Origin: Acidobacteriaceae bacterium
GTDB taxonomy: Bacteria > Acidobacteriota > Terriglobia > Terriglobales > Acidobacteriaceae
Assembly: GCA_025355505.1 (NCBI GenBank)
Contig: JANXZM010000069.1
Location: forward strand, 1-64,000
DNA length: 64,000 nucleotides
Reading direction: 5' to 3'
Position 1 is the stretch's first letter, and the number at the start of each line of letters is the position of its first letter. The notes under the pieces were generated by a model. It had not been told where the DNA came from. It did no database searches and worked only from the letters and a program-made list of their open reading frames with translations. The position numbers were made by a program, and so were the translations under genes. Shown piece after piece: positions 11,504 to 52,461 of the stretch.

Positions 11504-11565
11504 CCAGGACCGTGTGGCCTCGTTTTCCATTACAAGATGCAAAACACTCATAAGGAGACGATTTC

Positions 11566-12816: not shown

Positions 12817-12872
12817 GTCATCATTCGAAGTGGAGCGCAGACGTAGCCGTCAGCGCGAGAGAGGTGAAAGCC

Positions 12873-15044: not shown

Positions 15045-15145
15045 TGGAAAACAGCGCTTTAGGCGGAGAGCGAGCCGGGCCGCAATCGAGGAGCGGCGAT
15101 GAGACAGGCAACGGTTTTGCCCCCGCGGGGCGTTGGCTGTCCTTC

Positions 15146-16900: not shown

Positions 16901-16997
16901 GCCTGGTTCCGATATGACTGGTGCATTTCGCCTCGCCCAGGCTGCGTGGTGATCAGCGCAAGGGTTTCTGGACTCTGCAACACGCCAAGGAAGCTTT

Positions 16998-18215: not shown

Positions 18216-18267
18216 TAGCGTTGAATCTTGTGCGCATGAAGATTTGCAAGCAGGAAGGATCTGTATA

Positions 18268-20743: not shown

Positions 20744-20780
20744 AGTGGGCACGCAGACTGTGTACGACGCAGAGGAAGTC

Positions 20781-21668
20781 ATGTTTCGTGGGCGTTCGAA
20801 CCGGACGAGAAAGGTATTCGTACTAACCGCACTACTCATTTTGACGTGCTTTTGCGCCTGCCGGCCTCGCCAGGCGAAAAAAGTATTTGTGACTACGGAC
20901 ATGGAAGGGGTGGGCGGAGTTTTCAGCAGGGAACTCCAGTGCATACCTTTCGAGAGTCCGCGGTTCGAGGAGGCCAGAAAACTTCTGACGGGTGAGGTCA
21001 ACGCAGCCGTGGATGGCCTGATTGAAGGCGGTGCCACCGAGGTCGTGGTCTGGGACGGTCACGATGGCAGCCGCACACTCTCCACCCTGGATATCCATCC
21101 CCGGGCTAGGCTTCTTGCCGGCCTTCCCATCTCGTCAACCATTGAACTCGATTCGACCTACAACGCCGTGATTTTTATTGGCCAGCATGCCATGGCAGGA
21201 GCGGAGAAGGGTGTGCTCAGCCATTCCTACAGTTCCGATGGCATTGAAGGCATTTCGATCAACGGCAAGGCCGTGGGAGAGATCGGGGCGCGGACCATGC
21301 TGGCAGGCACGTTTGGCATTCCCGTGGTGATGCTTTCGGGGGACACGGCCGCCTGCCAGGAGATCCGCCAGTTAGTGCCGCAAGTGGAATGCGCGGAGGT
21401 TAAATCTGGCGCGAGCCGGACTGCAGCTTTCAGTCTCTCTCAGACAGCGGCCCGCGCGCTGATCAGAGAGAAGGCCCGACGCGCAATGGACCGGCTGCCG
21501 GAGTTCAAACCGTATCCGGTAAGCGGGCCGGCCGAAGTGAAGGTCAAGCTGACGCCGAAAGCCGCCGCCTCGAAAGTGGCCGAAGGCGTTGCCCTGCCTG
21601 ACGACCGGAGCTGGGTCTATCGGGGCAAGGACATCGTTGAAGCGTGGCTGAAGTTTTCCAGCTTCTGA
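20781..21668 (+). CDS. M55-family D-aminopeptidase (DppA-like), exported, copy A
   Basis: 295 residues from ATG 20781 (GAGGAAG upstream); GTG 20745 with AAGGAGG is an alternative that adds 12 acidic residues before the signal. The signal is lipoprotein-like (LTALLILTCFCAC). The M55 zinc ligands are visible: TDMEGVGG (D-x-E), WDGHDG, GQHAMAG, LSHSYSS, and EIGARTML ahead of VVMLSGD. M55 peptidases form ring decamers and remove N-terminal D-amino acids; the B. subtilis member is encoded with dipeptide transport genes. A second M55 gene at 52555 also follows a double-hydrolase/toroid pair. The reason for the link to glycan genes is unknown. Confidence 0.85.
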   Translation: MFRGRSNRTRKVFVLTALLILTCFCACRPRQAKKVFVTTDMEGVGGVFSRELQCIPFESPRFEEARKLLTGEVNAAVDGLIEGGATEVVVWDGHDGSRTLSTLDIHPRARLLAGLPISSTIELDSTYNAVIFIGQHAMAGAEKGVLSHSYSSDGIEGISINGKAVGEIGARTMLAGTFGIPVVMLSGDTAACQEIRQLVPQVECAEVKSGASRTAAFSLSQTAARALIREKARRAMDRLPEFKPYPVSGPAEVKVKLTPKAAASKVAEGVALPDDRSWVYRGKDIVEAWLKFSSF

Positions 21669-21803
21669 CCGGTAGCACGATCAATCGCATTCACATCCAG
21701 CAACGATTATTCTTGCAGGATGTCAACGTGATCCGCCCACAGGAGGCGAACAGTTTTGTGTGGAGAACTGATTCAATATCTAGCAAGAATGAATGAGTGA
21801 ACT

Positions 21804-22922
21804 TTGCCCCTCCCCGTAGAACTCACAATTCGATTGCATTGGGTGCAGGTACCCCTTTGGGAGCCTTTTCGCATCTCCAATGGAGAGATCCGCGTGAAGG
21901 ATGCCATCCTGGTTGAGGTGCAGGCTGGCGGTACAACCGGCTGGGGCGAAGCCTCCCCCTTGGCGGGGTCTGCCTACTCCACAGAGACTCCGCAGAGTAC
22001 TTGGGATTTCCTGCGCGACCATCTGATTCCAGCTTTTATCGAGCAGCCTGAACTCGACCCGCTTCGGTGTCTTGATCGTCTCTCAGAGCTTCCGGGAGAG
22101 CCTTTTGCCAGAGCTGGACTGGAAGGCGCGTTGTGGGATCTTCACGCCCAGCGAGTCGGAGTTCCGCTCTGGTCGCTTCTGGGCGGGAGCAATCGGCCAG
22201 TCGAATCAGGGGCGGCGGTCGGTTTGTTCACTGAGGTCTCCGATCTACTTAGTCGCGTTGAGAAATTTTTGAACCAAGGCTATCGGCGCATCAAGATTAA
22301 AATCGCTCCCGGGCAGGACCTTGAACTGATCCGCGCTCTGCGCCAGCGCTTCGGTAATATTCCCCTGATGGTGGACGCGAACGCAGCCTACCGACTGGAG
22401 GATGCGAAGCTTTTCGAGGAGATGGACGAGTACGGTTTGATGATGATCGAGCAACCTCTGGCGGGGGAAGCCTTAGCGGAGCATGCCGAACTTCAGCGCA
22501 AACTCCGGACACCGATTTGCCTGGACGAGTCAGCGGACAGCCTGGAGTCGATCCAATCCATCCTTCGACAGGGCAGCGGGCGCATCCTCAACATCAAGGT
22601 CCAGCGTATGGGAGGACTCTGGCCTGCGCGCCAGGCGCACGACCTGGCATGGGCGGCCGGCATTCCCTGCTGGCTCGGCACCATGCCGGAGCTTGGCATC
22701 GCATCGGTGCAGGGCCTGCATCTGGCAACGCTCCCCAACTTCACCTTGCCTTCGGATGTGCAGGCATCAGAGCGCTGGTTCGTCGAGGACATCATCAGCC
22801 CGCCGATTTCGATTACGCCGGATGGCTTCCTGAGCTTGTCGGATGAGCCTGGGACTGGGTGCCGGGTTGAGATCGAGAGAGTCGAGCGTTACCGTATCCG
22901 GTTTGAGGAATTGCGCCGATGA
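21804..22922 (+). CDS. Enolase-superfamily protein, OSBS / N-acylamino acid racemase type
   Basis: 372 residues. The frame opens only after the stop at 21798, so TTG 21804 is the first possible start. The protein has the N-terminal capping domain, K-x-K in RRIKIKIAPG, metal ligands in MVDANAAY, MMIEQPL and CLDESAD, and a second-side Lys in ILNIKVQRMGG. This pattern fits the o-succinylbenzoate synthase/N-succinylamino acid racemase subgroup. There are no menaquinone genes nearby, so a racemase or epimerase role is more likely. It begins a four-gene operon with 4-base overlaps and comes right after a D-aminopeptidase gene, which makes D-amino acid or peptide handling plausible. Confidence 0.8.
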   Translation: MPLPVELTIRLHWVQVPLWEPFRISNGEIRVKDAILVEVQAGGTTGWGEASPLAGSAYSTETPQSTWDFLRDHLIPAFIEQPELDPLRCLDRLSELPGEPFARAGLEGALWDLHAQRVGVPLWSLLGGSNRPVESGAAVGLFTEVSDLLSRVEKFLNQGYRRIKIKIAPGQDLELIRALRQRFGNIPLMVDANAAYRLEDAKLFEEMDEYGLMMIEQPLAGEALAEHAELQRKLRTPICLDESADSLESIQSILRQGSGRILNIKVQRMGGLWPARQAHDLAWAAGIPCWLGTMPELGIASVQGLHLATLPNFTLPSDVQASERWFVEDIISPPISITPDGFLSLSDEPGTGCRVEIERVERYRIRFEELRR

Positions 22923-23911
22923 AACTAATTTCTGCTGCGGCATGTTACAGAGGCTTGCGCCATGGGCTAATTCCTGCCGTGCCGGTGACGTTCAGCGCGT
23001 CCGGCCAGCTGGATGAAGACGCGCAGGAACGGTATGTGGCGCATATGGCCAGGCAACCGGTTGCTGGCTTGGCGGTGTGGGCGCACACCGGCCGGGGGCT
23101 GCGTCTTGGCCGCGAACAGCGGATCGGAGTCTTGCAGGCATGGCGCGACGGGCTGGGTCCAGAGAAGATGCTTATCGCGGGTGTGGGCGGAGCTTCGGAG
23201 CATGCGGCGCACTCCAGCGCGTATATCGATTCCGCTCTTGGCATGGCCAGGGATGCGCTGGAAAATGGCGCGCACGCCCTGCTGGTTTTTCCGCCTACGC
23301 CCTTTGCTCGAACCCCGCGGTCTGAGGATTTGATCCTCGACTACCATCGGCAACTCGCTGCGATCGGCGCCCCGCTCATCCTGTTCTATCTGTACGAGGA
23401 TGCGGGAGGCATCTCGTATTCGCAAGGGCTGTTACGTAAGCTGCTGGCGCTGCCGGAGGTGGCCGGAATCAAGCTGGCGACATTGGACAGCGTGATGACT
23501 TTCCAGGATGTCGCTGCCCTGATCAACGCAGAATTTCCCGGGAGGCTGCTGATTACCGGTGAGGATCGCTTCCTGGGCTACAGCCTGATGTGCGGCGCGC
23601 AGGCGGCTTTGATCGGCATGGGCGCTGCCTGCACCAAATTGCAGCGCGATCTTATGGACGCATATTTCGCAGGCCGGGCTGCGGAGTTCCTTGCCTTGTC
23701 CGAGGTGGTGGACAAACTGTCGCGGGCGTTGTTTGTGGCACCCATGGAGGGCTACATCCGCCGTGTCCTCTGGACCCTGGTTCACGAAAGTGTAATCGGG
23801 CGCGAGTCCAGCTACGACCCTTGGGGTCCGCAATTACCCGATGGCGAATTTACGGAACTCGGCCATCTTCTTCGCCAACTGGTTCTGGTTGATCGCAAGG
23901 CAGGGGATTGA
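22919..23911 (+). CDS. DapA-family aldolase/dehydratase, second member
   Basis: 330 residues; ATG 22919 overlaps the upstream stop by 4 bases. The barrel shows LIPAVPVTFSASGQLDED, the usual start of DapA-like enzymes, and VAGIKLATLDSV, with the Schiff-base Lys. The Tyr region reads LILFYLYED. It has no signal peptide and is only distantly related to the DapA-like protein encoded at 19751. The reaction is probably retro-aldol cleavage or dehydration of a 2-keto acid. Its operon with an enolase-superfamily enzyme and a transporter suggests a complete uptake and catabolic route for one small acid. Confidence 0.8.
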   Translation: MKLISAAACYRGLRHGLIPAVPVTFSASGQLDEDAQERYVAHMARQPVAGLAVWAHTGRGLRLGREQRIGVLQAWRDGLGPEKMLIAGVGGASEHAAHSSAYIDSALGMARDALENGAHALLVFPPTPFARTPRSEDLILDYHRQLAAIGAPLILFYLYEDAGGISYSQGLLRKLLALPEVAGIKLATLDSVMTFQDVAALINAEFPGRLLITGEDRFLGYSLMCGAQAALIGMGAACTKLQRDLMDAYFAGRAAEFLALSEVVDKLSRALFVAPMEGYIRRVLWTLVHESVIGRESSYDPWGPQLPDGEFTELGHLLRQLVLVDRKAGD

Positions 23912-23919
23912 AACATCGC

Positions 23920-25263
23920 ATGTGGGAATTTCTTCCACCAAGAGTCCGCTTGCCAGCAATCCCGCGTCCTCGCGAAGCCGACGCTCGTCGCATTGCAGAG
24001 GACTTCGAGCGGTTTCGCGACGGCCTCCCGCGGCCGCTCGAGCCCTATGTTTTCGATACGTACGGTGTTGACCTGGGGAGCGAATACGCAGGTCTGCGGG
24101 TGAAGAATCCTTTTGGCAAAGCTTCCGGCCAGCTTTCTCTCGCCCGGCATCAAGTCGAGCGGGATGCCGAGAGTGGACTTGGTTTTGTCATCCTGAAAAC
24201 GGTCATCGCTCAGGATTCCGGCGGCGAGCGAAGCATGCGCGAGTGGGCCATTCCGGAGACGCGTATGTTGGTGGAGCCGATTCGTGGACGCCTGGGCCGG
24301 GACGGATGGACCGTTACTTGGAAAGGCCGGGGCTGGTTCGACACGTTCCACGCGTACCGGGACTTTTTTGACCAAGCGTTGCGCCTCGGACAAGCCGCCG
24401 ACATGCTGGTCGCTCCCTCCGTCAAGTATCACTTGCCCGGCGTTGAAGAAACGGCCTGGAAACGGGAAGAGTACGACTTCACAACCAGTCGACTCCTGGA
24501 AGTGTGGAGCCAGCACTACGGAGACCGGCCGATGCCCCTGGAAAAGGATTTCAGCCCGACTCTGGCAGGCTCGGAGCGGGCTACCCAGCAGGCAAGGATT
24601 GCGGAGTGGTTCGAGGCTGTCCCCTCTCTGATCCACCGCGCGGCGCCGGGCCGGGTCCGCGTTGGACTGAAGATGTTCAACGCACTTTTTGAAGACGAGT
24701 TTCAGCTCCGGATGCTCGATACCATACACTCCGCCCAGCCGGGCGAGGGCAGAACGGATTTCCTGGTCTATGGCAACCGCCTGTTCGATCCTGCCAGAAA
24801 ATTTGAGGACAAACTGGGTGTCGCATACGGAGGTCCAGACTTGAGTGACCGCAATCTAGCCGTCCTCGAAAGATTTCGGTTCGCTCGTTCACGGCCGCCG
24901 GGTTTACCGGCGCAGAGCGCGGCGCGCGAAGATGCATTGCCTCTGAGCGCCACCGGCGACATTCATTCCGGACGCATCGCGATTGAATATCTGCTGCGCG
25001 GCGCATCCAGTTTTCAGATGCACACCTTGTTCCAGCTCCCGAATGGTGCGTTCTCGATGCGAGTAGGCAGCAAAACGGAGAAGTGTCTGCACCACCTGCT
25101 CTTTCATCCGGAAGACGGGGCGATTGCCTGGTTGCTGGATCTGCAACGCCGCTTCGTCTGGAAGCCGGAAATGAACATTGATAAGAAGGCCCAGTGGTGT
25201 CAGCAGCACTGGGCGGCGGTGGCCGAGCAATTGAGCTTGCCAGACAACCAGGCCAACGGATGA
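23920..25263 (+). CDS. Dihydroorotate-dehydrogenase-like FMN protein
   Basis: 447 residues from ATG 23920; TTG 23908 overlaps the previous stop and would add four residues. The barrel resembles DHOD and the C-terminal part of dihydropyrimidine dehydrogenase: GLRVKNPFGKASG near the start, GLGFVILKTV, and a phosphate-binding end ATGDIHSGRIAIEYLLRGAS followed by SSFQMHTLF. An Arg/Glu-rich insert separates the strands. No pyrimidine genes are nearby, so it probably oxidises or reduces another substrate. It sits third in the enolase/DapA/MFS operon. I know of no characterised member with this context. Confidence 0.6.
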   Translation: MWEFLPPRVRLPAIPRPREADARRIAEDFERFRDGLPRPLEPYVFDTYGVDLGSEYAGLRVKNPFGKASGQLSLARHQVERDAESGLGFVILKTVIAQDSGGERSMREWAIPETRMLVEPIRGRLGRDGWTVTWKGRGWFDTFHAYRDFFDQALRLGQAADMLVAPSVKYHLPGVEETAWKREEYDFTTSRLLEVWSQHYGDRPMPLEKDFSPTLAGSERATQQARIAEWFEAVPSLIHRAAPGRVRVGLKMFNALFEDEFQLRMLDTIHSAQPGEGRTDFLVYGNRLFDPARKFEDKLGVAYGGPDLSDRNLAVLERFRFARSRPPGLPAQSAAREDALPLSATGDIHSGRIAIEYLLRGASSFQMHTLFQLPNGAFSMRVGSKTEKCLHHLLFHPEDGAIAWLLDLQRRFVWKPEMNIDKKAQWCQQHWAAVAEQLSLPDNQANG

Positions 25264-25319
25264 ATGCATTGAAAGCCAACGAAGACGGACGATTTCAAAA
25301 TCGCAGAAGGCGGGCCTAA

Positions 25320-26582
25320 ATGCGCGGTTTTTACGGTTGGTGGATTGTGGTCGCGGCGTTCCTGAACCTCTTCTTCTCGGTAGGAATTGTCTACTACGGA
25401 TTCCCTGTCTTCTATCCTTCAATGGTGGATTCGCTAGGCTTCACTCGGGCTCAATTAACCCAGGGCTTTCTGGCGGGCTTCGTGGTGGCGGCTTTGATAT
25501 TCGGGATTTTGGCTGGAGTGTTGATCGACCGGTGGGGCGCTCACCGGGTCATCCGCGTGGGAATCTGGTTCGTTGGTGGCTCGCTGATTCTAATGGGAAG
25601 TATGACGCGGCTGTGGCAATACTACTTGCTCTGTATCACGGAAGTCGTCGGTTATGTTCTGACCGGACCGATCCCCAACCAGGTGTTGATCTCGAGCTGG
25701 TTCCAGGCGAAGCGAGGCCGGGCGATGGGTGGCGCATACCTCGGGCTGGGCCTGGGTGGCGCGATTTCGCCGCTTTTGATCAATGGCCTCATTCAGAGTT
25801 TTGGCTGGCGTCACGCTTTTCAAATTATCGGCGCGATGATCCTGCTCGTGCTCTTTCCCGTCGCCCAGTGGATCACGCGTTCGAGTCCACGCGACATGAA
25901 CCTGTTGCCGGATGGTGCCCCTGCGGGGACGCCGGCAGTTTCTCCCAATGTACAACTCGCTCCGGAATTGGATGTGGGGCGAGCCGTGCGCACCGCCAAC
26001 TTTTGGCTCATCCTTACAGGCTGCACGCTGACCATCGGTGCCATCGGTACGGTAACGCAGCATCTCATTCTGTTCCTTAAGGACCATGGGTATTCGCTGA
26101 GCGCAGCCTCCCGCGTGTCCAGCACTCTACTGGTATCCAGTCTCGCGGGGCGGGTGATCGTGGGCTATTTTGCGGACCGCTACAGCAAGAAAAACGTGAT
26201 GGCATTGTTCTACCTCATGCTTGCGCTGGCTATTCCCATTTTGCTTCTGGTCCGCCAGCCGGCGGGCATTTGGGGATTCGCGATGGTATTCGGGTTTGCC
26301 ATGGGCGCCGACTACATGTTGATTCCTCTGGTGACGGTGGAGTGCTTTGGATTGCCCGCGCTGGGAAGGCTTTTGTCTCTGATCATCATGGGCTATTCGC
26401 TTGGCCAGTGGCTTGCGCCCTGGCTGGCCGGCAAAATCTTCGATGTCCGCCACAGCTACGATCTCGCCTGGATCATCGTGACGGCCGCCGCACTGCTGGG
26501 CGCGGCGGCGATCTACAAGGTCGCACCGGGTCGGGGCATGCCTATAAACGGACGGAGGGACGCTACGAACCAAGTTGGTTGA
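25320..26582 (+). CDS. MFS transporter, OFA/monocarboxylate type
   Basis: 420 residues with about 12 hydrophobic segments. Between segments 2 and 3 is the MFS motif A (GVLIDRWGAHRVIRVG), with a second copy GYFADRYSKKNV in the C-terminal half. The N-terminus GFYGWWIVVAAFLNLFF is typical of oxalate:formate-antiporter-like and monocarboxylate-like carriers. It is the last gene of the 21804-26582 operon, so it likely imports the acid or sugar acid handled by the three enzymes before it. Direction and substrate are inference. Confidence 0.85.
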   Translation: MRGFYGWWIVVAAFLNLFFSVGIVYYGFPVFYPSMVDSLGFTRAQLTQGFLAGFVVAALIFGILAGVLIDRWGAHRVIRVGIWFVGGSLILMGSMTRLWQYYLLCITEVVGYVLTGPIPNQVLISSWFQAKRGRAMGGAYLGLGLGGAISPLLINGLIQSFGWRHAFQIIGAMILLVLFPVAQWITRSSPRDMNLLPDGAPAGTPAVSPNVQLAPELDVGRAVRTANFWLILTGCTLTIGAIGTVTQHLILFLKDHGYSLSAASRVSSTLLVSSLAGRVIVGYFADRYSKKNVMALFYLMLALAIPILLLVRQPAGIWGFAMVFGFAMGADYMLIPLVTVECFGLPALGRLLSLIIMGYSLGQWLAPWLAGKIFDVRHSYDLAWIIVTAAALLGAAAIYKVAPGRGMPINGRRDATNQVG

Positions 26583-34219: not shown

Positions 34220-35317
34220 GTGATTCTGGCAGTTCCGCTGCAGTCGAGCTTCGGGAAACCAATGCGAGTTGCCCTGACACGATACGAAGCTTTCCACCAG
34301 GCTATGGGGACTGAGTTCACCTTGGTTACCTACGGTGAAGATGCTCAGTACCTCACGGCTGTGGGCAGAGAGATTTTCGAAGAGATCGACCGCCTCGAAG
34401 CGCAGATGAGTAAATACAATCCCAAGAGCGAACTCTCAGTGATCAATCGATCTGCGGCTCGGCGGAGTGTCTGCGTAGAGCCCAAGCTTTTCGAGTTGCT
34501 CGCGCATGCCGTCCATTACAGCCAGTCCACAGAGGGAGCCTTTGACGCGACCGCGGGGCCGCTGATGAAGGCGTGGGGATTCTTTCGCGGGAAGGGTCGC
34601 GTTCCAAGGAATTCCGAAATTGCCAAGGTGTTGCGGCGAGTCGGCTATCGACACTTACACCTAAACCGAGTTGATCGTACCATCCGCTTCGATGTGCACG
34701 GCCTCGAACTGGATTTGGGCGCAATCGGAAAAGGCTATGCTGTCGACCGGGCTGTGGACATCCTTCGCTACTATGGCATTACCCGGGCTTTGGTCTCGAG
34801 CGGCACAAGCAGTCTCTACGCTCTCGGTGCGCCACCGGGTGCGCGAGGATGGTCGATTCGTCTGCGCAACCCCTACTCCATGCAAAGGGCGGCGGACGTG
34901 ATCTGCCTTAGGAATTGTTCCCTCTCGACTTCCGGGAACTACGAGAAATTCTTTAAGGTCGGAGCGAAGACGTATGCGCACATCTTGGACCCCACCAGCG
35001 GCAAACCGGTGGAGAACATGCTGGCCGCTATCGTCCTTGCTCCGCATGCCTGTGATGCCGACGCCCTTTCGACTGCGTTTTATGTGCAAGGCGTCGCGCG
35101 CAGTCGAGAGTACCTCGCCACTTCCCGAAATCTGATTGCCCTCTTTTACCTGCCTCAAGGCAGCGGGCGAAAGTTCCGGCGGGTGATCCTGCGCTCGGGG
35201 TCTACGAATTCTACGGGCGCAGTTCTTGCCCGGATTGCGAAACGAAAAGCGAACGCCGCCGGAGTGCGTACTCGCAGATCCGGCGGGGGGACCTTTTCCA
35301 GAGCCATTTCCCGGTAG
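34220..35317 (+). CDS. apbE: FAD:protein FMN transferase (ApbE)
   Basis: 365 residues from GTG 34220; ATG 34262 is an alternative start nearer the usual family N-terminus, and neither has a strong Shine-Dalgarno. Typical ApbE features are present: GTEFTLVTYG, ELDLGAIGKGYAVDRA, VSSGTSSLYALG (nucleotide-binding loop), and DADALSTAFYV, with the Mg-binding Asp. ApbE attaches FMN to Thr in exported redox proteins. No protein in the window shows the flavinylation motif, so its client is elsewhere or not recognised. No clear signal peptide is visible. The gene fits the many exported oxidoreductases around it. Confidence 0.9.
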   Translation: MILAVPLQSSFGKPMRVALTRYEAFHQAMGTEFTLVTYGEDAQYLTAVGREIFEEIDRLEAQMSKYNPKSELSVINRSAARRSVCVEPKLFELLAHAVHYSQSTEGAFDATAGPLMKAWGFFRGKGRVPRNSEIAKVLRRVGYRHLHLNRVDRTIRFDVHGLELDLGAIGKGYAVDRAVDILRYYGITRALVSSGTSSLYALGAPPGARGWSIRLRNPYSMQRAADVICLRNCSLSTSGNYEKFFKVGAKTYAHILDPTSGKPVENMLAAIVLAPHACDADALSTAFYVQGVARSREYLATSRNLIALFYLPQGSGRKFRRVILRSGSTNSTGAVLARIAKRKANAAGVRTRRSGGGTFSRAISR

Positions 35318-42128: not shown

Positions 42129-43923
42129 ATGATTGGCCGGGCCATCCTGTCGGGCATGTTGGTGTGTGCGGCTGCAGCGCGGGGCGGGGCGGCTGAGCTG
42201 CCTGGACAATATTTCCGGCTAATGGAGTCTGGTATTGCCCAAGCCGAGCAGCGATTAGCCGCCCAGCCATCGTTAGACCTGAAGGCCTTCGAGACCGACG
42301 ACAATGGGTATCCCCTTTTTCCGCACGTCGTTCTTGTTGCGGCGGTACTCTATGTCAAACAGGACTCGTCGAATTACCGCTATAGGGATCCAAAAATGCT
42401 TTCGTTGGCGATGAAAATCGGCGATTCCTTGGCTGGCGAGCGCCAAAACGGAAAATTCTCAGGGACAGATAACGAACGCGACCTGTACATGTGGCTGGAA
42501 GCTTACCGATTGCTCGAACGCGATCTGGGAGAAGAGCGCCGGGAGTGCTGGCGGCAAGAGCTGCAAAGCATTGTGCAAGAGCTGGCAGGCGAAGTTGCCC
42601 GGCGGGAGGACTTTCCCGGTTACCAGTCACCCTTCATCGGCACCTCACCGAATCACCTCGCGTTGTGGACCTCGACCGTCTATCTCGCAGGGCGTGTGTT
42701 CGGAAACCGCAAATGGGAGGAACTGGGAACCCGTGTCCTGCACCGCTTTGCCGTCGAAGAGCAGTCTCCGAATGGCTACTGGGGCGAACATGAGAGATCG
42801 CTTCCAACGCCCGGATACGGTTACAACACTTACGCGAGTGTCTCGCTGTACTACGAATTTTCGCATGACCCGGCTGCGCTCAAGGCACTGCGGCGGGGCT
42901 TGCTCTTCCACAAGTTCTTCACTTATCCGGACGGAAGCCCTCTTGAAGTGCTAGACGATCGCAACCGCTATACGAGTGTGGTCGGCTGGGGTTCGACCGG
43001 GTTGCCGAGGCGGTCGGGTGACATGCCACCCGGTGGGAACGACGAGTCGGCCTCAAAGGGGCAGTTTGGATTCTCGAATTTTCCGGATGGACGCCGCTAT
43101 GCCGAGTTCTTGACGAGTTTCTTCCACGAAGGCCGCATGGCCTATGAGGACCTGGGCCGGATTGCTCAGGACGCCCTTTACTACCACCCCGGTCCTAAGG
43201 CGCCGATCCCGCAGGATTTGCCCCGCTACACCCGGCAGCTCACAGTGCCGGCAGGAATCCGCAAGACCGGACACTGGGTGGTCTGCCTCTCTGGCCTGAT
43301 CAGTCCCCAGGCGGTCACCAGCCAGTTCTATCTTGATCGCCAGGGGCACTTGTCCATCTTCCACGATAAGCTCGGGCTGATCGTCACCGGAGCCGGCTCC
43401 AAGCGACAATCCGAGTTAGCCACGTTTTCCGAAAAGCTCCAGGGCCAAACATTTCACATGCCCATCAGCAGCCGATTGCAGATGAGCACAGAGAAGGACC
43501 GGCTCTCACTTGCCTACAATACGTTTTTCAGCGATCTTTATGTGCCGCCACCTTCGGACGACCAGGTGACGCTTCGCTTCGTCATCACCGGAAGGGGCCC
43601 TCCAGCGGACGAAGCGCAACTGACTCTACAGTTGTGCCTCAAACCGGGAGAGATACTAGAAACTGCGGCAGGTCGAACGAGTGGAACTGAAGGCAGATGC
43701 TCTGGGCGGTTGGATTCGCCACCACGGATGGACGCTGAAGATTGATCCGGCGGCACGACTGGTCTGGCCCGTCTACCCGCATGACCCTTACACGGATGCT
43801 CCGGAAACAGCTCTGGAGCACGCCGTGGGCGTGCTTTCCGTGCCGCTTCGATTGGGCAAAGAAAGCACCCGAGGCCTGCGCCCGGGTGAACAGGAAATTT
43901 CTCTCACCCTGACGGCTCAGTAG
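42129..43923 (+). pseudogene. Alpha-toroid polysaccharide-lyase-like protein, copy C, frameshifted
   Basis: The frame from ATG 42129 has a signal peptide and matches copies A and B through residue ~515 (YIGTSPNHLALW, NGYWGEHE, FGFSNFPDGRRYAEFL). At 43672-43680 the frame breaks: the paralogues have GKRIVLGTERIEL, whereas here AAGR is joined to ERVEL in another frame. This equals loss of about 20 bases. The remaining C-terminus, GGWIRHHGWTLKIDPAARLVW to the end, continues in the new frame to 43923. The first frame instead ends at 43745. The product would lack the last ~70 residues of the beta-domain. It also has a ~35-residue insert near residue 300. Confidence 0.75.
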
Positions 43924-44013: not shown

Positions 44014-45246
44014 ATGCCTAAGAAAACGCAAGAAGGAGCGCCGAAAGAAATGGATCGCCGGGAATTTTTGACCCTGGTCTCGGCCAGCACGCTCGGGGGT
44101 AGCATCCTCAGTGCGATAGACGCTCTCGGGGCCACGCCCGCGTCAGCTTCCACTTCCACGCACGGGATGAAGTACCGGCGGTTGGGGCGCACGGAAATGA
44201 TGGTCTCCGAGATCGCCATGGGCTGTTCTCCGCAAGGGCAGAAGACTCCTGAGGTGGAATATTTTCAGAAGCTCACGCGCGTTATCCAAATGGCGATTGA
44301 TCGCGGCGTAAACCTGATCGACACAGCGCCCACTTATTTTTCTGAAAAGATGGTTGGTGCGGCGATCAAGGGCCGCCGAGACAAGGTTTACATCGCCACC
44401 AAAGCCGAGAGCCTCGACCGCAACGAGTTGATACGCGGCGTCGAACAGAGCTTGCGCGATCTGGGCACAGACTACATTGACCTTTTGCACGAGCACGCGC
44501 ACTACGAGACGGCGGAGGAAGTTTTCACTAAGTCGGGTTTTCTGGAAGCCTGCGAGAAATTGAAGCGCGACGGCAAGTTGCGCTTCTCTGGCATCAGTGG
44601 GCACAACGTGAACATCCACATCGAGGCGATCAAGACAGGTTATTTCGACACCTTCATGATCCCCTACAACTATCTCATCCGCCAGCCAGCGGAGGTCTTG
44701 TTCCCGCTGGCCAAGAAACTCGACGTGGGTGCGCTGGTGATCAAACCGATGACCGGAAATTTCAAGCCCTGGGAGCAGATGTCAGGCGACCCGCGGCTTG
44801 ATGATCTAAAGCTCGCGTTCAATCAAACCAACTATGCGCGGGCCTCGATCAAGTGGGCGCTCTCCAATCAGTACATCGCCAGCCTGGTTATCGGCATGGA
44901 GTTCGAGCGCGACGTGATCGAGGACACGGCGCTGGCCGGCGAGCGCATTACCGAAGATGATGAACGGCTGCTCGCCGTCTACGCGAGCGCGGTCGGTGCC
45001 GATTACTGCACCATGTGCAACAAGTGCTTGCCGTGTCCGGAAGGAGTGGCGATTCCCGACATGCTGCGGTTCATGACCTATCACGACAACTACGGCCATC
45101 GCGAGCGGGCTCGACGGCTCTACGCGCAGTTGCCGGTCCTGAACAACGCCGCCCGCTGTACCGACTGCGGGGACTGCGAACCGCGCTGTCCGGTAAAAAT
45201 CCCGATTGTACGGAAGTTGCGAGCTGCGCATGCGACGCTGGCATAA
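44014..45246 (+). CDS. Tat-exported aldo/keto reductase with two [4Fe-4S] cluster motifs
   Basis: 410 residues with a Tat signal (DRREFLTLVSASTLGGSIL). The AKR barrel shows YRRLGRTEMMVSEIAMGC, LIDTAPTYFSE with the catalytic Tyr and Asp, YIATKAES with Lys, and LLHEHAHYE. The C-terminal extension has two ferredoxin motifs: CTMCNKCLPCPEG from Cys332 and CTDCGDCEPRCPVK from Cys382. Export with bound iron-sulfur clusters means that the protein folds before transport and could pass electrons to a carrier. The next gene encodes a triheme protein, a likely partner. Substrate unknown; a sugar or keto-sugar fits the context. Confidence 0.85.
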   Translation: MPKKTQEGAPKEMDRREFLTLVSASTLGGSILSAIDALGATPASASTSTHGMKYRRLGRTEMMVSEIAMGCSPQGQKTPEVEYFQKLTRVIQMAIDRGVNLIDTAPTYFSEKMVGAAIKGRRDKVYIATKAESLDRNELIRGVEQSLRDLGTDYIDLLHEHAHYETAEEVFTKSGFLEACEKLKRDGKLRFSGISGHNVNIHIEAIKTGYFDTFMIPYNYLIRQPAEVLFPLAKKLDVGALVIKPMTGNFKPWEQMSGDPRLDDLKLAFNQTNYARASIKWALSNQYIASLVIGMEFERDVIEDTALAGERITEDDERLLAVYASAVGADYCTMCNKCLPCPEGVAIPDMLRFMTYHDNYGHRERARRLYAQLPVLNNAARCTDCGDCEPRCPVKIPIVRKLRAAHATLA

Positions 45247-45250
45247 ACCC

Positions 45251-47053
45251 ATGAGAGTGATTGCTTTGGTTGAGTGGATGAAACCATTATCGCTACGAGA
45301 TGGGGTCCTTTGCCAGGTTCTCAAGGGAATGGTTTACGCTTTGTATGCACTGTTGCTCACGGGATTGGCGCAGGTTTCGCCTGCCCAACTGCCTCCTCAA
45401 TCGTCGGCGCAGGCAGAGGACCCGGAGGTGGCACGGTTGCTCGCGACCCTTAAGCAAGAGCAGTGGGCGGACTGGCAAGTGCCGCAGGCGGCCGCTCAAA
45501 GGCTGGCCGAGATAGGCGGTCCAGCCGTGCGCCCGATCTTTCAGGCGATGACCGAGAGCACCAACACTCGCGCATTGGACTGGATGGAGTATTCCCTCTA
45601 TCGCATGGCCGAGCAGTATGCTGCGGGCCACGATGAGGCGAAGTCTCCGCTCACGATTTTCATGGCTACACTCGACAACCGCCGTGAAGCGTATGACCTG
45701 CGCCGGTTAGCGGCTCGGCTGCTGGGCAAGCTCGGCGACGCTCTTGCCGTTCCAGTGTTGGGGAACAATTTGACCGACCGACGCGTAGCCCTGCAGGCCG
45801 CGCGTAGCCTGGGCCAGATCAAAACCGCAAGCGCGCGGCGGGAGCTCGTCAGTCATCTCGCAGCAGCCAACCAGGCGCTGAAGTTGGAGATCATCGAAGC
45901 GCTTGGCCAGTTGGCAGATGCGCAAGCCTTACCTGCGCTGGAGAGTGCGGCGGCTTCGCATACTCCAGAAGTACGCGCGGCGGCGGTGGGAGCGCTGGCG
46001 CGCATCCGGGGACCGCGTACGCTCACGCTGCTCAAGCAGATGGTGACGCACGAAGCCAATATGCAGGTCAGGCAATCGTTGCGGCTCGGTTTTCTGCGCC
46101 TGGGTCAAGCGCTGCCGCCTTCTCTTGCAAAGCTTGCAACAGCCGACATCAAGACGATCTCTTGCCAGGGTTGCCACGCGCAGATCTACACCGACTTTCT
46201 CACCAGCGCACACAACACGAAGGGCCACCTCACTTGCATCACTTGTCATGGCAAGAGCGTCGCGCATCAGGTGAGCTATGGCAGCGAAGCGCCCGAGCGG
46301 ACGTATGGCGGGCCGAGAGTCGCGCCCCTATGCGCGCAGTGCCATCGGCAAATGGACCTGCCTTCAGTGGAGCTCGCGCTGACCGGTCGGTTACGGCATA
46401 CTTTCTCGTTCTTGAACCGGATCAAAGCGGGCAGCGGTGCTGGCTCGCCGGCCGAAACCTCCACCTATGTGGAGAACTTTGAGCACGGCACAGCGCTCAA
46501 CTGGGAAGCGGTCAATCCCGAAGATTGGCAGCTGCTGCGTAACGGCGCAAACCGCTTCTACGCCTTGACCAAGCCGTTCACCAGCGGCGTGCCCCGCCGC
46601 CCAATCCAAATCTCGTTGCTCAAGCAGAAGGCCTTTGGGGATCTTACCTTCACTGTGCGCGTGCGGCGACCGGACCCGGCCATGGGTTCGCTGGTTCTGG
46701 TTTTCGGTTACCAGGACGAAGCACATTTCTATTACGCGCATCTGTCCGAGGATTCATCGGTGAAGGCGCCAATGCACAACGGGCTGTTCGTCGTGGATGG
46801 CGCGCCGCGGCAGCGCGTCGGGACTGCGGAGGCCGCTGCGATTCTGCCTGACACCAACTGGCATCGGATCAGGATCGTGCGTGAGGTGAGCAGCGGGCGC
46901 ATCGCACTTTATTTAGACGATGCGCCGCAACCGGTGCTGGAGGCAATTGATCACCGTTTCCAGTGGGGGCAGATTGGGCTGGGCAGCTTTCACGAAGTCG
47001 GCCAGTTCGACGACGTGACTATAACCGGTACGCGGGCTGCCAGCGTGAAATAG
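45251..47053 (+). CDS. Exported HEAT-repeat / triheme cytochrome / concanavalin-like fusion protein
   Basis: 600 residues from ATG 45251, 5 bases after the AKR stop. A signal peptide lies near residues 20-45. Residues 50-290 are HEAT/PBS-type repeats (AARLLGKLGDALAVPVLGNN, ALQAARSLGQIKTAS, LEIIEALGQLADAQALPALE). Three CXXCH heme sites follow: CQGCH at 305, CITCH at 329 and CAQCH at 361. Residues ~405-600 form a beta-sandwich of the LamG/DUF1080 kind (FGDLTFTVRVRRPDPAMGSL, NWHRIRIVREVSSGRIALYLDD, GQIGLGSF), a fold found in 3-keto-glycoside hydrolases. It may bind glycan while shuttling electrons from the adjacent Fe-S aldo/keto reductase. Confidence 0.75.
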   Translation: MRVIALVEWMKPLSLRDGVLCQVLKGMVYALYALLLTGLAQVSPAQLPPQSSAQAEDPEVARLLATLKQEQWADWQVPQAAAQRLAEIGGPAVRPIFQAMTESTNTRALDWMEYSLYRMAEQYAAGHDEAKSPLTIFMATLDNRREAYDLRRLAARLLGKLGDALAVPVLGNNLTDRRVALQAARSLGQIKTASARRELVSHLAAANQALKLEIIEALGQLADAQALPALESAAASHTPEVRAAAVGALARIRGPRTLTLLKQMVTHEANMQVRQSLRLGFLRLGQALPPSLAKLATADIKTISCQGCHAQIYTDFLTSAHNTKGHLTCITCHGKSVAHQVSYGSEAPERTYGGPRVAPLCAQCHRQMDLPSVELALTGRLRHTFSFLNRIKAGSGAGSPAETSTYVENFEHGTALNWEAVNPEDWQLLRNGANRFYALTKPFTSGVPRRPIQISLLKQKAFGDLTFTVRVRRPDPAMGSLVLVFGYQDEAHFYYAHLSEDSSVKAPMHNGLFVVDGAPRQRVGTAEAAAILPDTNWHRIRIVREVSSGRIALYLDDAPQPVLEAIDHRFQWGQIGLGSFHEVGQFDDVTITGTRAASVK

Positions 47054-47109: not shown

Positions 47110-48447
47110 ATGATGTCAGAAAACAATTCAAGTCTCACCAGACGCGCATTCATCGTTGCCGGCGGCGCGGCGCTGGCCGCAACAGCAACTTCTGTTGTCA
47201 ACCTTCCGCTGGAGGCGCAACAGCGGAGGCTCAGGATGGCCATTGTAGGCACCGGCAATCGCGGCTGCCTTACCTGGGGACAGGAGGTGGTGGTCGGCTA
47301 CAGCGATGTCGTGGAAATCGTCGGGCTATGCGACATCAACCGCAAGCGGGTAGTGGCGGCCCAGAAGCTGATTGGGATCAACGCGCCCACCTTTGTGGAC
47401 TTCGACCGGATGATCAAAGAGACCCGCCCCGATACCGTGATGGTGACTACGATCGATGCCACTCACGCCCGGTACATCATTCGCGCGCTGGAACTGGGCT
47501 GCGACGTGATGAGCGAAAAGCCGCTCTGTACCGACGAGCAGCAGTGTCAGGCGATCCTGGATGCCGAAAAGAAGTCGGGCAAGAAAATCACCGTGACCTT
47601 CAATGCCCGGCACGATCGAATGGAAAAAAAAGTGAAAGAACTACTCCTGGGGAAAGCCATTGGCGATGTCATCTCCGTGGACTTTCACGAATATCTGGAT
47701 ACCAGTCATGGCGCCGACTATTTCCGCCGCTGGCACCGGCTGAAGGAGAACTCCGGTACGTTGTTGGTCCACAAAGCATCACATCATTTTGACCTGGTCA
47801 ACTGGTGGCTGAATTCCACACCGGTGGAGGTGACAGCCTTCGGTGATTTGAAATTCTACGGGCGTAACAATTCCTTCCGCAGCACGCACTGCCGTGTTTG
47901 CCCGTTCAAACAGCAGTGCAAGTTCTATATGGACGTTACCAAAAACGAGCAGTACGTAAGACTCTACGTGGATTGTGAATCCGAAGACGGCTACATGCGC
48001 GACGGTTGCGTCTGGCGGGAGGACATCAATATCTACGACAACATGTCGGTGGTAGTGAAGTATGAAAATGGCGCCCACCTTAACTATACCGCCAACACTT
48101 ACTTGCCCTATGAGGGCCAGGCGATTTCCATCAATGGCCATCAGGGACGGATCGACTGTAACGAGTTCGGCGGCGGTGGGTTCAGCAACAAGGAAGTTCG
48201 CCTGACACGCAGTTTCGGCAAATCAGAAGTGGTAAAAGATTTGGAACCGGAGCGAGTGGGTGGACACGGAGGCGCCGACGCGTCGTTGCAGGATCTGATC
48301 TTTCGCGGATCGCAAGGTCCTGACCCGCTGGGTTTGCGCGCTGGCCTTCGGGATGGCGCTCTCTCAAGTCTGATCGGGATTGCGGCCCGTCACAGTATCG
48401 AACGCGGCAGTCAGACGGTCAAGATCAACGACCTGGTCAAACTCTAA
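47110..48447 (+). CDS. Tat-exported Gfo/Idh/MocA oxidoreductase with an inserted cysteine cluster
   Basis: 445 residues; ATG 47110 or 47113 with AGAAGGG upstream. A Tat signal (TRRAFIVAGGAALAATAT) precedes AIVGTGNRGCLTWG, the Rossmann motif, and MSEKPLC, the EKP motif. Between residues 261 and 300 an insert carries five Cys (C261, C264, C270, C289, C300) in the pattern HCRVCPFKQQC then CES and DGCVW. This suggests a structural zinc or an Fe-S centre, which the other MocA proteins in the window lack. Substrate-side residues include HKASHHFDLVNWW. It precedes copy B of the double hydrolase. Confidence 0.85.
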   Translation: MMSENNSSLTRRAFIVAGGAALAATATSVVNLPLEAQQRRLRMAIVGTGNRGCLTWGQEVVVGYSDVVEIVGLCDINRKRVVAAQKLIGINAPTFVDFDRMIKETRPDTVMVTTIDATHARYIIRALELGCDVMSEKPLCTDEQQCQAILDAEKKSGKKITVTFNARHDRMEKKVKELLLGKAIGDVISVDFHEYLDTSHGADYFRRWHRLKENSGTLLVHKASHHFDLVNWWLNSTPVEVTAFGDLKFYGRNNSFRSTHCRVCPFKQQCKFYMDVTKNEQYVRLYVDCESEDGYMRDGCVWREDINIYDNMSVVVKYENGAHLNYTANTYLPYEGQAISINGHQGRIDCNEFGGGGFSNKEVRLTRSFGKSEVVKDLEPERVGGHGGADASLQDLIFRGSQGPDPLGLRAGLRDGALSSLIGIAARHSIERGSQTVKINDLVKL

Positions 48448-48468
48448 TTGCATCGAGGGAGCATAAGA

Positions 48469-50631
48469 ATGCGAACCGTGTGCATCGCTTGTATCGTGGC
48501 TTGCCTGCTTGCCGTGTCCGCCGCAGCGCAAGAATCCGCGGACTTGAATTTCGCCTCCGGGTTAGAGCAATTCCAGAATATCCACGGAATGTTGCCGGCG
48601 TACTTGGACAACATCGGGCTGCGGATGCTCACGGAACGAAATCGCAAGGTCGAGGGGCTGGCCAATATCGAAGACGTGAAAAAGCGAGGCGCTTATCTCC
48701 GGCAACGGATACTGGATGATGTCGGTGGCTTCCCCGAAAAAACTCCCCTGAACGCGAGAGTTGTTGGAGTGCTGGAGGGGCCAGGGTACAGAATTGAGAA
48801 AGTGATTTTCGAGAGTCAACCTCATTTCTACGTAACTGCCAACCTATATCTGCCAACAACCGGGCATCCACCTTATCCGGCGATTCTCTACCCACTCGGA
48901 CATGAGCGCGGAGGCAAAACTAATCCGACCTGGCAGCAGATGCTCGGGTCGCTTGCCACCAAGGGTTTTGTCGCGTTGACTTGGGACCCGATCGGTCAGG
49001 GCGAACGGCTGCAAATTTACGACGAGGACCTGCGCGAGTCGAAAGTCGGCGATTCGACCACCGAGCACACCGAAGTCGGCGCGCAGTGCCTGCTGGTCGG
49101 CGACCACATGGCGCGCTATATGATCTGGGACGGTATTCGTGCTCTCGACTATCTTCTCTCGCGAAAGGAAGTTGACCCCGCGCGTGTCGGTTTGACGGGA
49201 AATTCCGGCGGCGGCGCCAGCACTGCCTATATCGCAGCACTGGATGATCGCATCCAGGTCGCGGCGCCCTCCTGCTGGATCACTTCGTGGCGTTTGATGC
49301 TTCAGACGCTTGGCCCCCAGGACGGAGAGCAAACGTTCCCCTTCTGGCTGCGGGACGGCCTCGACTATCCTGACTTTCTCTACGCGTTTGCTCCCAAACC
49401 CTATCTCGTACTTTCCGCCATACGCGATTTCTTCCCCATCGCTGGCGTCCGAGATACTTTTGCCGAAGCTAAGGCGGTCTATTCAGCGATCGGCGCAAAG
49501 GAAAAGCTGGCCATGTTTGAAGCTGACGACGGTCACGGTTACAGCAAGCCGCGTCGAATGGCCGCATACGATTGGTTTAGCCGCTGGCTGAAGGGAGCTG
49601 AAGACAAGAGTCCGGAGCCGCAGATCAAAATGTCTACTCCCGAGGAGTTACGTTGTACTCCTACGGGCCAAGTCTCCACTTCGCTGGGCGGCGAGAGCGT
49701 ATTCACCTTGAACCAGAAACGGCTGGAGCGGTTGAAGGCGAATCGCACGACGCGGACCGGAGACCTGTCTCGTGAAGTGCAAGAGTTGATCCACTACGAA
49801 CTTTCGACGGGCCCGTTACAAGACAGGCCATATGGCACGCTCACCCGTTCCGGCTATCACATCGAAAGGCTGATCTACGAGAGTGAGCCCGGCATCATGA
49901 TTCCATCGCTGCTCTATGTTCCCGATGCGGGAGCTGGCAAGAAGGCTGCGGTGTTACTGGTCAGCGGAGATGGCAAGGCAGATTCAGCGCCCGAGGCGGA
50001 GCAACTTGTGACATCGGGGATGGTTGTGCTCTCCATCGATGCCAGAGGTTTCGGCGAAACGAAGGTTACCGCGGAAGTCAACAGCAGGGATTTTGACCGC
50101 TACTTTGGAGATTTCGACGGCTCGATGACCGCTCTGGTGATCGGCAAGACCATGGTTGGAATGCGCGCCCTTGACATCACGCGAGGCGTCGATCTGCTCT
50201 TAGCACGCCAGGATGTTGACCCGGACAAGATTTATGCCTACGGGAAAGATGGAGGCGCGATGCCGGCTCTGTATGCCGCAGTGCTGGATCATCGGATCCG
50301 TAAAGTGGCGCTGGAAGGCATGTTGTCCTCTTACGAGTCCGTTGTGAACAATAGGGTTCATCGACAGGTGTTCGACAGCCTCGTACCTGGCGCTTTGAAG
50401 TTCTACGATCTGCCCGATCTGGTGGCCGCCTTGGCTCCGCGTGAGGTTTGGATTGTGAGCGGCACCGACCCGATGGGACACGGATTGCCAGCCAGTGAAA
50501 TCAAGAAAGAATATAGTCGCGCGGTCGATGCGTTCAGGAACGCGGGAGCGGAACAAGCCCTTCACATTCGGGACCACAGGCCCGGTGAGGACACCATCAC
50601 CACCTACCACGAGTTAACTGACGGCCGATAG
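48469..50631 (+). CDS. Exported double alpha/beta-hydrolase (active N-half, degenerate C-half), copy B
   Basis: 720 residues from ATG 48469 (GAGGGA upstream), signal peptide ending near AAAQ. The design is that of copy A: nucleophile Ser246 in GNSGGG, Asp in AIRDFF, His356 in DDGHGYSKPRR, and a second hydrolase half whose nucleophile is Lys593 in GKDGG. Long blocks are nearly identical to copy A (for example FESQPHFYVTANLY and LGSLATKGFVALTWDPIGQ), which indicates a paralogous duplication. That the Ser is lost from the second half in both copies points to an old loss with a kept structural role. The predicted role is ester cleavage on a glycan substrate. Confidence 0.8.
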   Translation: MRTVCIACIVACLLAVSAAAQESADLNFASGLEQFQNIHGMLPAYLDNIGLRMLTERNRKVEGLANIEDVKKRGAYLRQRILDDVGGFPEKTPLNARVVGVLEGPGYRIEKVIFESQPHFYVTANLYLPTTGHPPYPAILYPLGHERGGKTNPTWQQMLGSLATKGFVALTWDPIGQGERLQIYDEDLRESKVGDSTTEHTEVGAQCLLVGDHMARYMIWDGIRALDYLLSRKEVDPARVGLTGNSGGGASTAYIAALDDRIQVAAPSCWITSWRLMLQTLGPQDGEQTFPFWLRDGLDYPDFLYAFAPKPYLVLSAIRDFFPIAGVRDTFAEAKAVYSAIGAKEKLAMFEADDGHGYSKPRRMAAYDWFSRWLKGAEDKSPEPQIKMSTPEELRCTPTGQVSTSLGGESVFTLNQKRLERLKANRTTRTGDLSREVQELIHYELSTGPLQDRPYGTLTRSGYHIERLIYESEPGIMIPSLLYVPDAGAGKKAAVLLVSGDGKADSAPEAEQLVTSGMVVLSIDARGFGETKVTAEVNSRDFDRYFGDFDGSMTALVIGKTMVGMRALDITRGVDLLLARQDVDPDKIYAYGKDGGAMPALYAAVLDHRIRKVALEGMLSSYESVVNNRVHRQVFDSLVPGALKFYDLPDLVAALAPREVWIVSGTDPMGHGLPASEIKKEYSRAVDAFRNAGAEQALHIRDHRPGEDTITTYHELTDGR

Positions 50632-50643
50632 AAGAGGAGCAGC

Positions 50644-52461
50644 ATGATCGCAAAGACGTGTGGTGTAGGAATCGGAAAGCTCACGATCGGAGGGGTGGCG
50701 ATGCTGTGCCTGCTGGGCTTTGCGCAGACAGCAGCCGCGCAGCCCACCGCGTTGCCAGGTGCGTACTTCCGTTTGATGGAAGCGGGAACCGGCCTGGTTG
50801 AAGCGCGGCTCAACGCGGAACCCGATGCGACCCTGGAAACGCTGGAAGGACGGCCGGGGTGGAGTCACTTTCCCTATTCCATTCTGGCGGCCACCGTTTT
50901 GTATACCAAGCAGAACGCCGCGAATCGGCACTATCACGATCCCAAGATGCTGGCGCTGGCAATTCGGATCGGAGATCTGCTTGCGGATGAAAGCGAAAAA
51001 GGGCGCTTTGAACCGCGCCTCGATAGTGACTGGGACACCTACATGTGGGTAGAAGCGTACCGACTGCTGGGGCCGCAGCTAGGGAAAGAGCGCCGGGCGC
51101 GTTGGAAAATGGAAATCGAGAAAATTGTGGTATCGATCGTTCCCGATACCGTGGCTCGTATGGACTTCCCATGGTACAACACGCCCTACATCGGAACCTC
51201 TCCGAATCACTACGCGCAATGGGCCTCCCTGCTACTTGTTGCCGGCCGGGTGTTCGGAAACAAGGATTGGGAAAACCTGGGCACCAGAATCCTGCATCGC
51301 TTCTCCGCGGAAGAGCAGACGCCGGATGGCTATTGGGGAGAACATAGCCGCGCGGGTCCAACCACGGGCTATGACTATGTAACCTCTACCCAGGTGGCGG
51401 TTTATTGGGAGTACACACATGACCCCGTGGCATTACAGGCATTGCGCCGCTCGACCGATTTTCACAAGTACTTTACCTATCTGGACGGCACTCCGGTGGA
51501 GCTCATCAATGACCGCAATCGCTACTGGGGCGTCGACGCTTGGGGACATTTCGGTTTCTCAAATTTTCCCGACGGCCGACGGTACGCGGAGTTCTTGACC
51601 AATTTTTTTCGCGTGGACAACTTGGAACACATGGCTCCCCAATGGGACAAGTGGGGATTGACGTTGGATGCATTAGGGCGGCTGGCCCAGGATGCGCTGT
51701 ACTATCACGACGGACCCACCAGACCCATTCCTCAAGATCAGCCTCGGTACTCCCATCAGATGAGTGTGCCGGCAGGGATCCGCAAGGCCGGACCTTGGGT
51801 CGTGGTGCTTTCGGGTTTGACCAGCACTCCGACAACCTTCAGCCAGTTCCACCTGGACCGGCAAAGTAGTATTAGCGTCTTTCACAAGAAATATGGCTTG
51901 GTGATCAGCGGCGCCAATTCCAAACGACAGCCTGAGCTCGCGACTTTTTCGGAAAACATACAGGGACAGATATTCAACCTGCCGCTTAGCAGTCGTTTGC
52001 AAATGAACGATAAGCAGGATCGACTCTCCCTGGCCTATAACACCTTCTTCAGCGACATGTACGTTCCCACGCCATCCAAAAACGAGTTACAACTTCGCTT
52101 CGTGCTTACTGGCCGGGGGGAGCCGGCGGAGCAAGCAACTTTGAGTCTGCAGCTTTGCCTGGTGGCAGGGGAGACGCTGGAAACCGCGAGCGGGAAACGC
52201 ATCGTGCTGGGGACCGAACGGATCGAGCTTTCAGGAGCGGAGATAGGAGGAACAATCCGCCACCGCGGCTGGACGCTGAAGGTGGATCCCAATGCCCGGC
52301 TTGTCTGGCCCGTCTATCCTTACAACCCTTACTCGAATGCAGTCGAGACTAAGCTGGAGCATGCGGTTGGCGCGCTTTCGGTTCCATTGCGAAAGCCCAA
52401 AGAGCACAAGTATATCCGTGCAGCTGAACAGGAGATTGCGTTCACGCTGACGGTGGATTGA
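50644..52461 (+). CDS. Exported alpha-toroid polysaccharide-lyase-like protein, copy B
   Basis: 605 residues from ATG 50644, preceded by AGAGGAG; 12 bases after the hydrolase stop. The signal peptide (IGGVAMLCLLGFAQTAAAQ) is normal. Key conserved blocks shared with copies A and C: RLMEAGTGLVEARL, NRHYHDPKMLALAIRIGDL, YIGTSPNHYAQW, DGYWGEHS, NDRNRYWGVDAWGHFGFSNF, and the beta-domain VSVFHKKYGL-like segment (ISVFHKKYGLVISGANSKRQ). Invariant Asn, His, Tyr and Arg residues in these blocks are candidates for catalysis. It is the best-preserved member of the three. I cannot assign a CAZy family from sequence reading alone. Confidence 0.7.
   Translation: MIAKTCGVGIGKLTIGGVAMLCLLGFAQTAAAQPTALPGAYFRLMEAGTGLVEARLNAEPDATLETLEGRPGWSHFPYSILAATVLYTKQNAANRHYHDPKMLALAIRIGDLLADESEKGRFEPRLDSDWDTYMWVEAYRLLGPQLGKERRARWKMEIEKIVVSIVPDTVARMDFPWYNTPYIGTSPNHYAQWASLLLVAGRVFGNKDWENLGTRILHRFSAEEQTPDGYWGEHSRAGPTTGYDYVTSTQVAVYWEYTHDPVALQALRRSTDFHKYFTYLDGTPVELINDRNRYWGVDAWGHFGFSNFPDGRRYAEFLTNFFRVDNLEHMAPQWDKWGLTLDALGRLAQDALYYHDGPTRPIPQDQPRYSHQMSVPAGIRKAGPWVVVLSGLTSTPTTFSQFHLDRQSSISVFHKKYGLVISGANSKRQPELATFSENIQGQIFNLPLSSRLQMNDKQDRLSLAYNTFFSDMYVPTPSKNELQLRFVLTGRGEPAEQATLSLQLCLVAGETLETASGKRIVLGTERIELSGAEIGGTIRHRGWTLKVDPNARLVWPVYPYNPYSNAVETKLEHAVGALSVPLRKPKEHKYIRAAEQEIAFTLTVD

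Follow-up and report, generated by a model that had tools for sequence, protein, structure and literature searches.

In this work we asked what a protein that joins HEAT repeats, three c-type heme sites and a lectin-like domain could do in a glycan-type operon of an acidobacterium, and with which of its neighbours it might work. The gene in question lies at 45251-47053 on the plus strand of the window, by which we mean the whole stretch of 64,000 nucleotides of Acidobacteriaceae DNA that was analysed. As read, it encodes 600 residues in an open frame with no internal stop codon; ATG 45251 was taken as the start, a choice that is uncertain, the longest in-frame start being TTG 45206. The N-terminus is hydrophobic and signal-like within residues 18-47, with a helix predicted by AF2 at residues 18-40, and it includes the signal-peptide-like stretch MVYALYALLLTGLAQVSPAQL (residues 27-47; 45329-45391, plus strand, subject to the same uncertainty of the start codon). 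From this N-terminus we infer that the protein is exported. The following part, residues 58-293 (45422-46129, plus strand), is a HEAT repeat solenoid, and both the profile and the helical-repeat fold agree on this: Pfam HEAT_2 matches the protein with an E-value of 4.4e-21 (75.4 bits vs a cut-off of 27.7) and HEAT_PBS with 8.7e-10, the AF2 model places helices over residues 58-293 at a pLDDT of about 60-86, and in a fold comparison this part of the model matches alphaRep HEAT structures with Z up to 14.9. The PSCyt domain is absent from the protein according to Pfam, and a scan for promoters and terminators yielded no more than chance.

Is such an architecture real, or could it have arisen when the genome was assembled? 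The search of the phylum returned one independent ortholog, which a peptide-pattern scan of species genomes placed on contig JACQDB010000059.1 of Acidobacteria bacterium isolate NC_groundwater_983, a groundwater metagenome-assembled genome (MAG) from another class of Acidobacteriota. The two copies are about 62% identical over their full length (60-63%) and their domain order is identical. Since this independent genome has the same architecture, an assembly chimera, or local assembly fusion, can be ruled out. As judged from their sequences, a HEAT solenoid, three c-type heme sites and a ConA/LamG-like module thus follow one another in the same order in two distant genomes, and the open frame, the Pfam matches and the ortholog together uphold the original description of a single exported protein that combines HEAT repeats, three CXXCH sites and a lectin-like domain in a glycan-type operon. 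The ortholog searches covered the genus (24 genomes), the order (249), the phylum (396), the ortholog's family (7) and class (162), and plasmids. The fusion was found in none of the 23 other genomes of the genus, the 248 other genomes of the order contained nothing beyond the C-terminal module, and the groundwater MAG was the one further genome with a full-length match in the phylum search. None of the 161 other genomes of the ortholog's class gave a match at E <= 1e-20, and a profile of the HEAT and heme parts gave no further match in the window's own class (399 genomes). We also scanned 84,980 species genomes twice with narrow peptide patterns, and it is by these scans only that other phyla were covered. 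Elsewhere the heme profile matched ordinary multiheme proteins, and none of the reading frames inspected showed an evident fusion to HEAT repeats. In all searches, the fusion is therefore known from two genomes, the window's and that of JACQDB010000059.1, and because its presence is so scattered, horizontal transfer or frequent loss of the gene is suggested.

The three heme sites lie close together in a segment of residues 300-385 (46148-46405, plus strand). The motifs are CQGCH (residues 305-309; 46163-46177), CITCH (residues 329-333; 46235-46249) and CAQCH (residues 361-365; 46331-46345), all on the plus strand, and their first residues coincide exactly with the positions 305, 329 and 361 given in the first-pass annotation. 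A chance origin was ruled out by composition shuffling, in which 0.002 CXXCH motifs were expected per shuffled copy of the fusion protein and three together occurred in 0 of 100,000 shuffles. With at least two CXXCH motifs in an exported protein as the criterion, the predicted product would belong to the multiheme c-type cytochromes, and the host encodes cytochrome c assembly proteins, with five matches in its genome to Cytochrom_C_asm (PF01578) above the cut-off. The segment itself is matched below threshold by two families, Cytochrome_C7 (PF14522; E 0.0009, 19.4 bits vs a cut-off of 24.8) and Cytochrom_c3_2 (PF14537; E 0.0021, 18.9 bits vs a cut-off of 25), and AlphaFold, a program that has no heme, leaves it unfolded. 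Four small exported trihemes of Acidobacteriota, which are c7/c3-like, share its spacing of CxxCH-x11-H, CxxCHG, CxxCH and a late histidine, but they are standalone proteins without HEAT repeats or a beta module, whereas the segment of the fusion stays below the cut-offs of the two families. Between the two fusion copies the segment is 67% identical and thus among the best-kept parts; both retain the three CXXCH motifs and the candidate distal ligands H321, H339 and H383, while H326 is not retained, in a comparison where two sequences sample the residue conservation of the full-length fusion weakly. Because six histidines are conserved and the spacing is common to the standalone trihemes, the segment likely carries three bis-His hemes that would serve in electron transfer rather than in substrate binding. 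A close spacing of heme sites, here three, together with conservation of candidate second ligands, is what one typically sees in electron carriers. This is also what speaks against reading the protein as a redox sensor or structural scaffold whose hemes carry no metabolic flux. The HEAT scaffold, the rare and scattered distribution and the lack of an identified donor would fit a sensor or scaffold, but with three such heme sites we regard this function as quite improbable.

What does the C-terminal module (residues 405-595; 46463-47035, plus strand) bind or convert? It had been described as close to the domain of 3-keto-glycoside hydrolases, and for this we found no support at the sequence level: the module of the window protein has no Pfam match, DUF1080 included, and neither it nor 17 relatives match PF06439 (DUF1080) at E <= 1, a family with no match in the host's own genome either. 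Laminin_G_2 weakly matches 7 of the 18 relatives of the module (best E 0.0051), the window copy not being among them, and the matches from a profile search of the PDB (neurexin, laminin and a levanase carbohydrate-binding module) were all weak. A low-confidence model of the module (pLDDT about 40-70) matches galectins with a Z of about 11.5 and an rmsd of about 3 over some 140 aligned residues; it suggests a beta-sandwich, and as DUF1080 chains were not in the list of this fold comparison, the list excludes nothing on the DUF1080 fold. The best reading of the profile and model matches is a ConA-like lectin fold. Could the module nevertheless be an enzyme in its own right, acting on oxidised or unsaturated sugars in the manner of 3-ketoglycoside hydrolases, with the hemes serving a coupled redox step? 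Residues W426, R449, P451, Y495, H497 and R520 (in the 600-residue numbering) are invariant among the 18 relatives, and the polar set R449, Y495, H497 and R520 is shared by relatives down to 23% identity, which goes beyond what a mere binding module would call for; moreover, one relative is fused to ThuA and others lie near Gfo/Idh or GMC genes. However, neither PF06439 nor any other enzyme family is matched and the fold matches are lectins, so that we consider a catalytic module unlikely. The module alone is widespread in Acidobacteriota, where it occurs on its own as an exported protein or in fusion with ThuA (PF06283), the latter seen at L048:6222-7796, and standalone relatives occur near genes for AKR, Gfo/Idh, GMC, or PQQ-dehydrogenase and cytochrome c.

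A candidate partner lies directly upstream. The gene for a Tat-type aldo/keto reductase (AKR) with a ferredoxin-type tail occupies 44014-45246 on the plus strand; its stop codon ends at 45246 and the ATG of the fusion starts 5 bases on, which leaves 4 bases between the two genes. The N-terminus of the AKR is of the Tat type (DRREFL), and the tail of the protein has a Fer4_9 match (E 3.9e-7) and two CxxCxxCxxxC motifs; the earlier account of an exported-type AKR with two [4Fe-4S] motifs immediately before the fusion gene therefore holds. It is tempting to imagine that this enzyme oxidises or reduces a sugar and trades electrons through its clusters with the adjoining triheme protein, all the more since both proteins have export-type starts. 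At seven loci in three other families, too, the gene immediately before that of a standalone LamG/ConA-like protein homologous to the C-terminal module (about 30-38% identity) encodes a Tat-type AKR. These standalone proteins, however, have neither HEAT repeats nor heme, they form one clade (support 100/99) apart from the window's module, and the matches of the AKRs next to them leave out the Fe-S tail. Because their modules cluster apart, we count the seven loci as one other association and not as conservation, and reject them as support for the pair in the window. Nor does the pair recur with the ortholog: there is no AKR within 40 kb of the fusion on JACQDB010000059.1, and the best AKR of that genome is a partial match of 32% identity over residues 51-247 with the Fe-S part unmatched, so that the sole ortholog genome is without the Fe-S AKR. 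At the strict limit of E <= 1e-90, no close ortholog of the AKR was found in 247 genomes of the phylum. On present data we therefore reject the Fe-S AKR as a conserved partner. The transfer of electrons from NADPH through Fe-S clusters to heme normally needs a flavin, which splits the hydride into single electrons, and Pfam found no flavin domain in the AKR. With the pair not conserved and the flavin lacking, the proposed path from NADPH or Fe-S to heme is left unsupported, and for these two reasons we give electron exchange between the AKR and the triheme protein a low probability.

The fusion gene stands in a plus-strand run with short gaps that encodes, in order, a lyase-like paralog, the AKR, the fusion, a Gfo/Idh/MocA oxidoreductase with a Tat-like start (47110-48447), an acetyl-xylan-esterase/abhydrolase protein (48448-50631), an intact lyase-like protein of 605 residues (50644-52461) and an M55 peptidase. 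In the groundwater MAG a relative of this 605-residue protein, about 62% identical, is encoded directly after the fusion gene (12663-14507 of L033), and it is the only conserved neighbour common to both fusion loci. The family has three copies in the window. Besides the 605-residue protein, there is an intact paralog of about 600 residues at 15041-16900 and the paralog that opens the run at 42129-43918, both on the plus strand; the latter is frameshifted near 43690, with tblastn continuing in another frame at 64% identity, and is either a pseudogene or an assembly error. As three copies lie within 64 kb, the distance of 3.6 kb between the fusion and lyase-like genes in the window could partly be due to chance, and more weight attaches to the MAG, where the two genes are directly adjacent.

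The lyase-like family has no match to a Pfam or NCBIfam family, and no PDB sequence was matched in a profile search. Its low-confidence model (pLDDT 52) resembles chondroitin, hyaluronate and alginate lyases, with a best Foldseek E-value of 1.5e-7 at a TM of about 0.3, and in comparison with PL17 it gives a Z of 14.2 and an rmsd of 8.3 over 389 aligned positions (residues 37-605). The model thus resembles the (alpha/alpha)-toroid polysaccharide lyases of the PL8/PL17/PL33 kind. N188-H189 and Y243, a candidate catalytic set, are invariant in the four sequences of the family, and the distance of 54 residues between His and Tyr equals that from H172 to Y226 of the PL5 enzyme PanPL; the PanPL mutants N171L, H172A and Y226F are named among the matched structure entries. 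Judging from the model, this family of about 600 residues is likely an undescribed family of predicted polysaccharide lyases. The same neighbour bears on the question of whether the fusion protein might donate electrons to an oxidative polysaccharide-cleaving enzyme, as cellobiose dehydrogenase does to LPMO. A heme protein with a carbohydrate-type module in a polysaccharide locus would suit such a donor, but the Pfam search of window proteins found neither an LPMO nor a copper enzyme, and the one neighbour common to both loci resembles a non-redox lyase; we therefore think a role of this kind very improbable.

What, then, might the fusion protein do? The reading that we tentatively favour is that of a secreted modular electron carrier, periplasmic or on the cell surface, for glycan breakdown beside a lyase-type enzyme. 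Through its C-terminal module the protein would be anchored at a poly- or oligosaccharide, a partner would dock on the HEAT solenoid, and the role of the bis-His hemes would be electron transport and not the binding of substrate. In this way the fusion protein could take up electrons where an exported enzyme oxidises sugar at the glycan and deliver them towards the respiratory chain, alongside the lyase-type enzyme and at least one exported sugar oxidoreductase. Next to the fusion gene, we found a flavin or quinone sugar dehydrogenase in neither locus. By analogy, the closest known model would be the glycoside 3-dehydrogenases with a heme c acceptor. An FAD glucoside 3-dehydrogenase passes its electrons to a heme c protein (PMC9915066), and LacABC works together with DUF1080 proteins (PMC9007349). 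As we propose for our locus, sugar is oxidised there in the periplasm with heme c as acceptor, and a sugar-acting protein of the ConA-like kind is close by (PMC9007349, PMC9915066); unlike those systems, the operon of the fusion has no GMC dehydrogenase that we could see, and its module is not DUF1080 by profile. A second comparison is offered by the PSCyt-CBM fusions of Planctomycetes and Verrucomicrobia, which lie near polysaccharide genes and whose role is unknown (PMC5615132). In them, too, a single protein unites a c-type cytochrome domain with a carbohydrate-binding module, of the LamG or another type, in a neighbourhood of polysaccharide degradation (PMC5615132), but theirs are PSCyt/PSD domains, whereas here three CXXCH motifs within about 60 residues are combined with HEAT repeats and PSCyt is unmatched. 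Fusions of cytochromes with carbohydrate-binding modules are therefore an already published kind of protein, and for the combination of HEAT repeats with a multiheme cytochrome our literature search found no precedent. A more specific reading, to which we assign little probability, is that a single exported protein puts a domain for binding or converting sugar, together with a bis-His triheme wire, on a HEAT dock, such that the lyase-type system would pass electrons from its oligosaccharide products directly to respiration; this would give LacABC and PSCyt systems a multiheme counterpart.

In Planctomycetes and Verrucomicrobia, fusions of the cytochrome-CBM type are common. The protein described here is a compact and independently conserved case with three heme sites and a recognisable lyase-like neighbour. 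Is the breakdown of glycans in Acidobacteriota wired directly to extracytoplasmic electron transfer? The fusion offers a tractable route to this question, and the follow-up has also brought out a family of about 600 residues with no Pfam match, which the structural model marks as a likely new polysaccharide lyase. Some further observations concern the surroundings. A second plus-strand run at 10574-26582 encodes Gfo/Idh, esterase, lyase-like, M55 peptidase, Oxidored_FMN and enolase-type proteins, two DHDPS-type proteins and an MFS transporter; it is apparently a sister operon with no cytochrome. At 34220-35317, also on the plus strand, an ApbE-type flavin transferase is encoded between a Gfo/Idh protein and a GH20 hexosaminidase, its flavoprotein target not being obvious. 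Finally, in another genome of the same family (G163, L036:4648-7806), a standalone copy of the lectin-like module directly follows the genes for a PQQ dehydrogenase and a monoheme cytochrome c.
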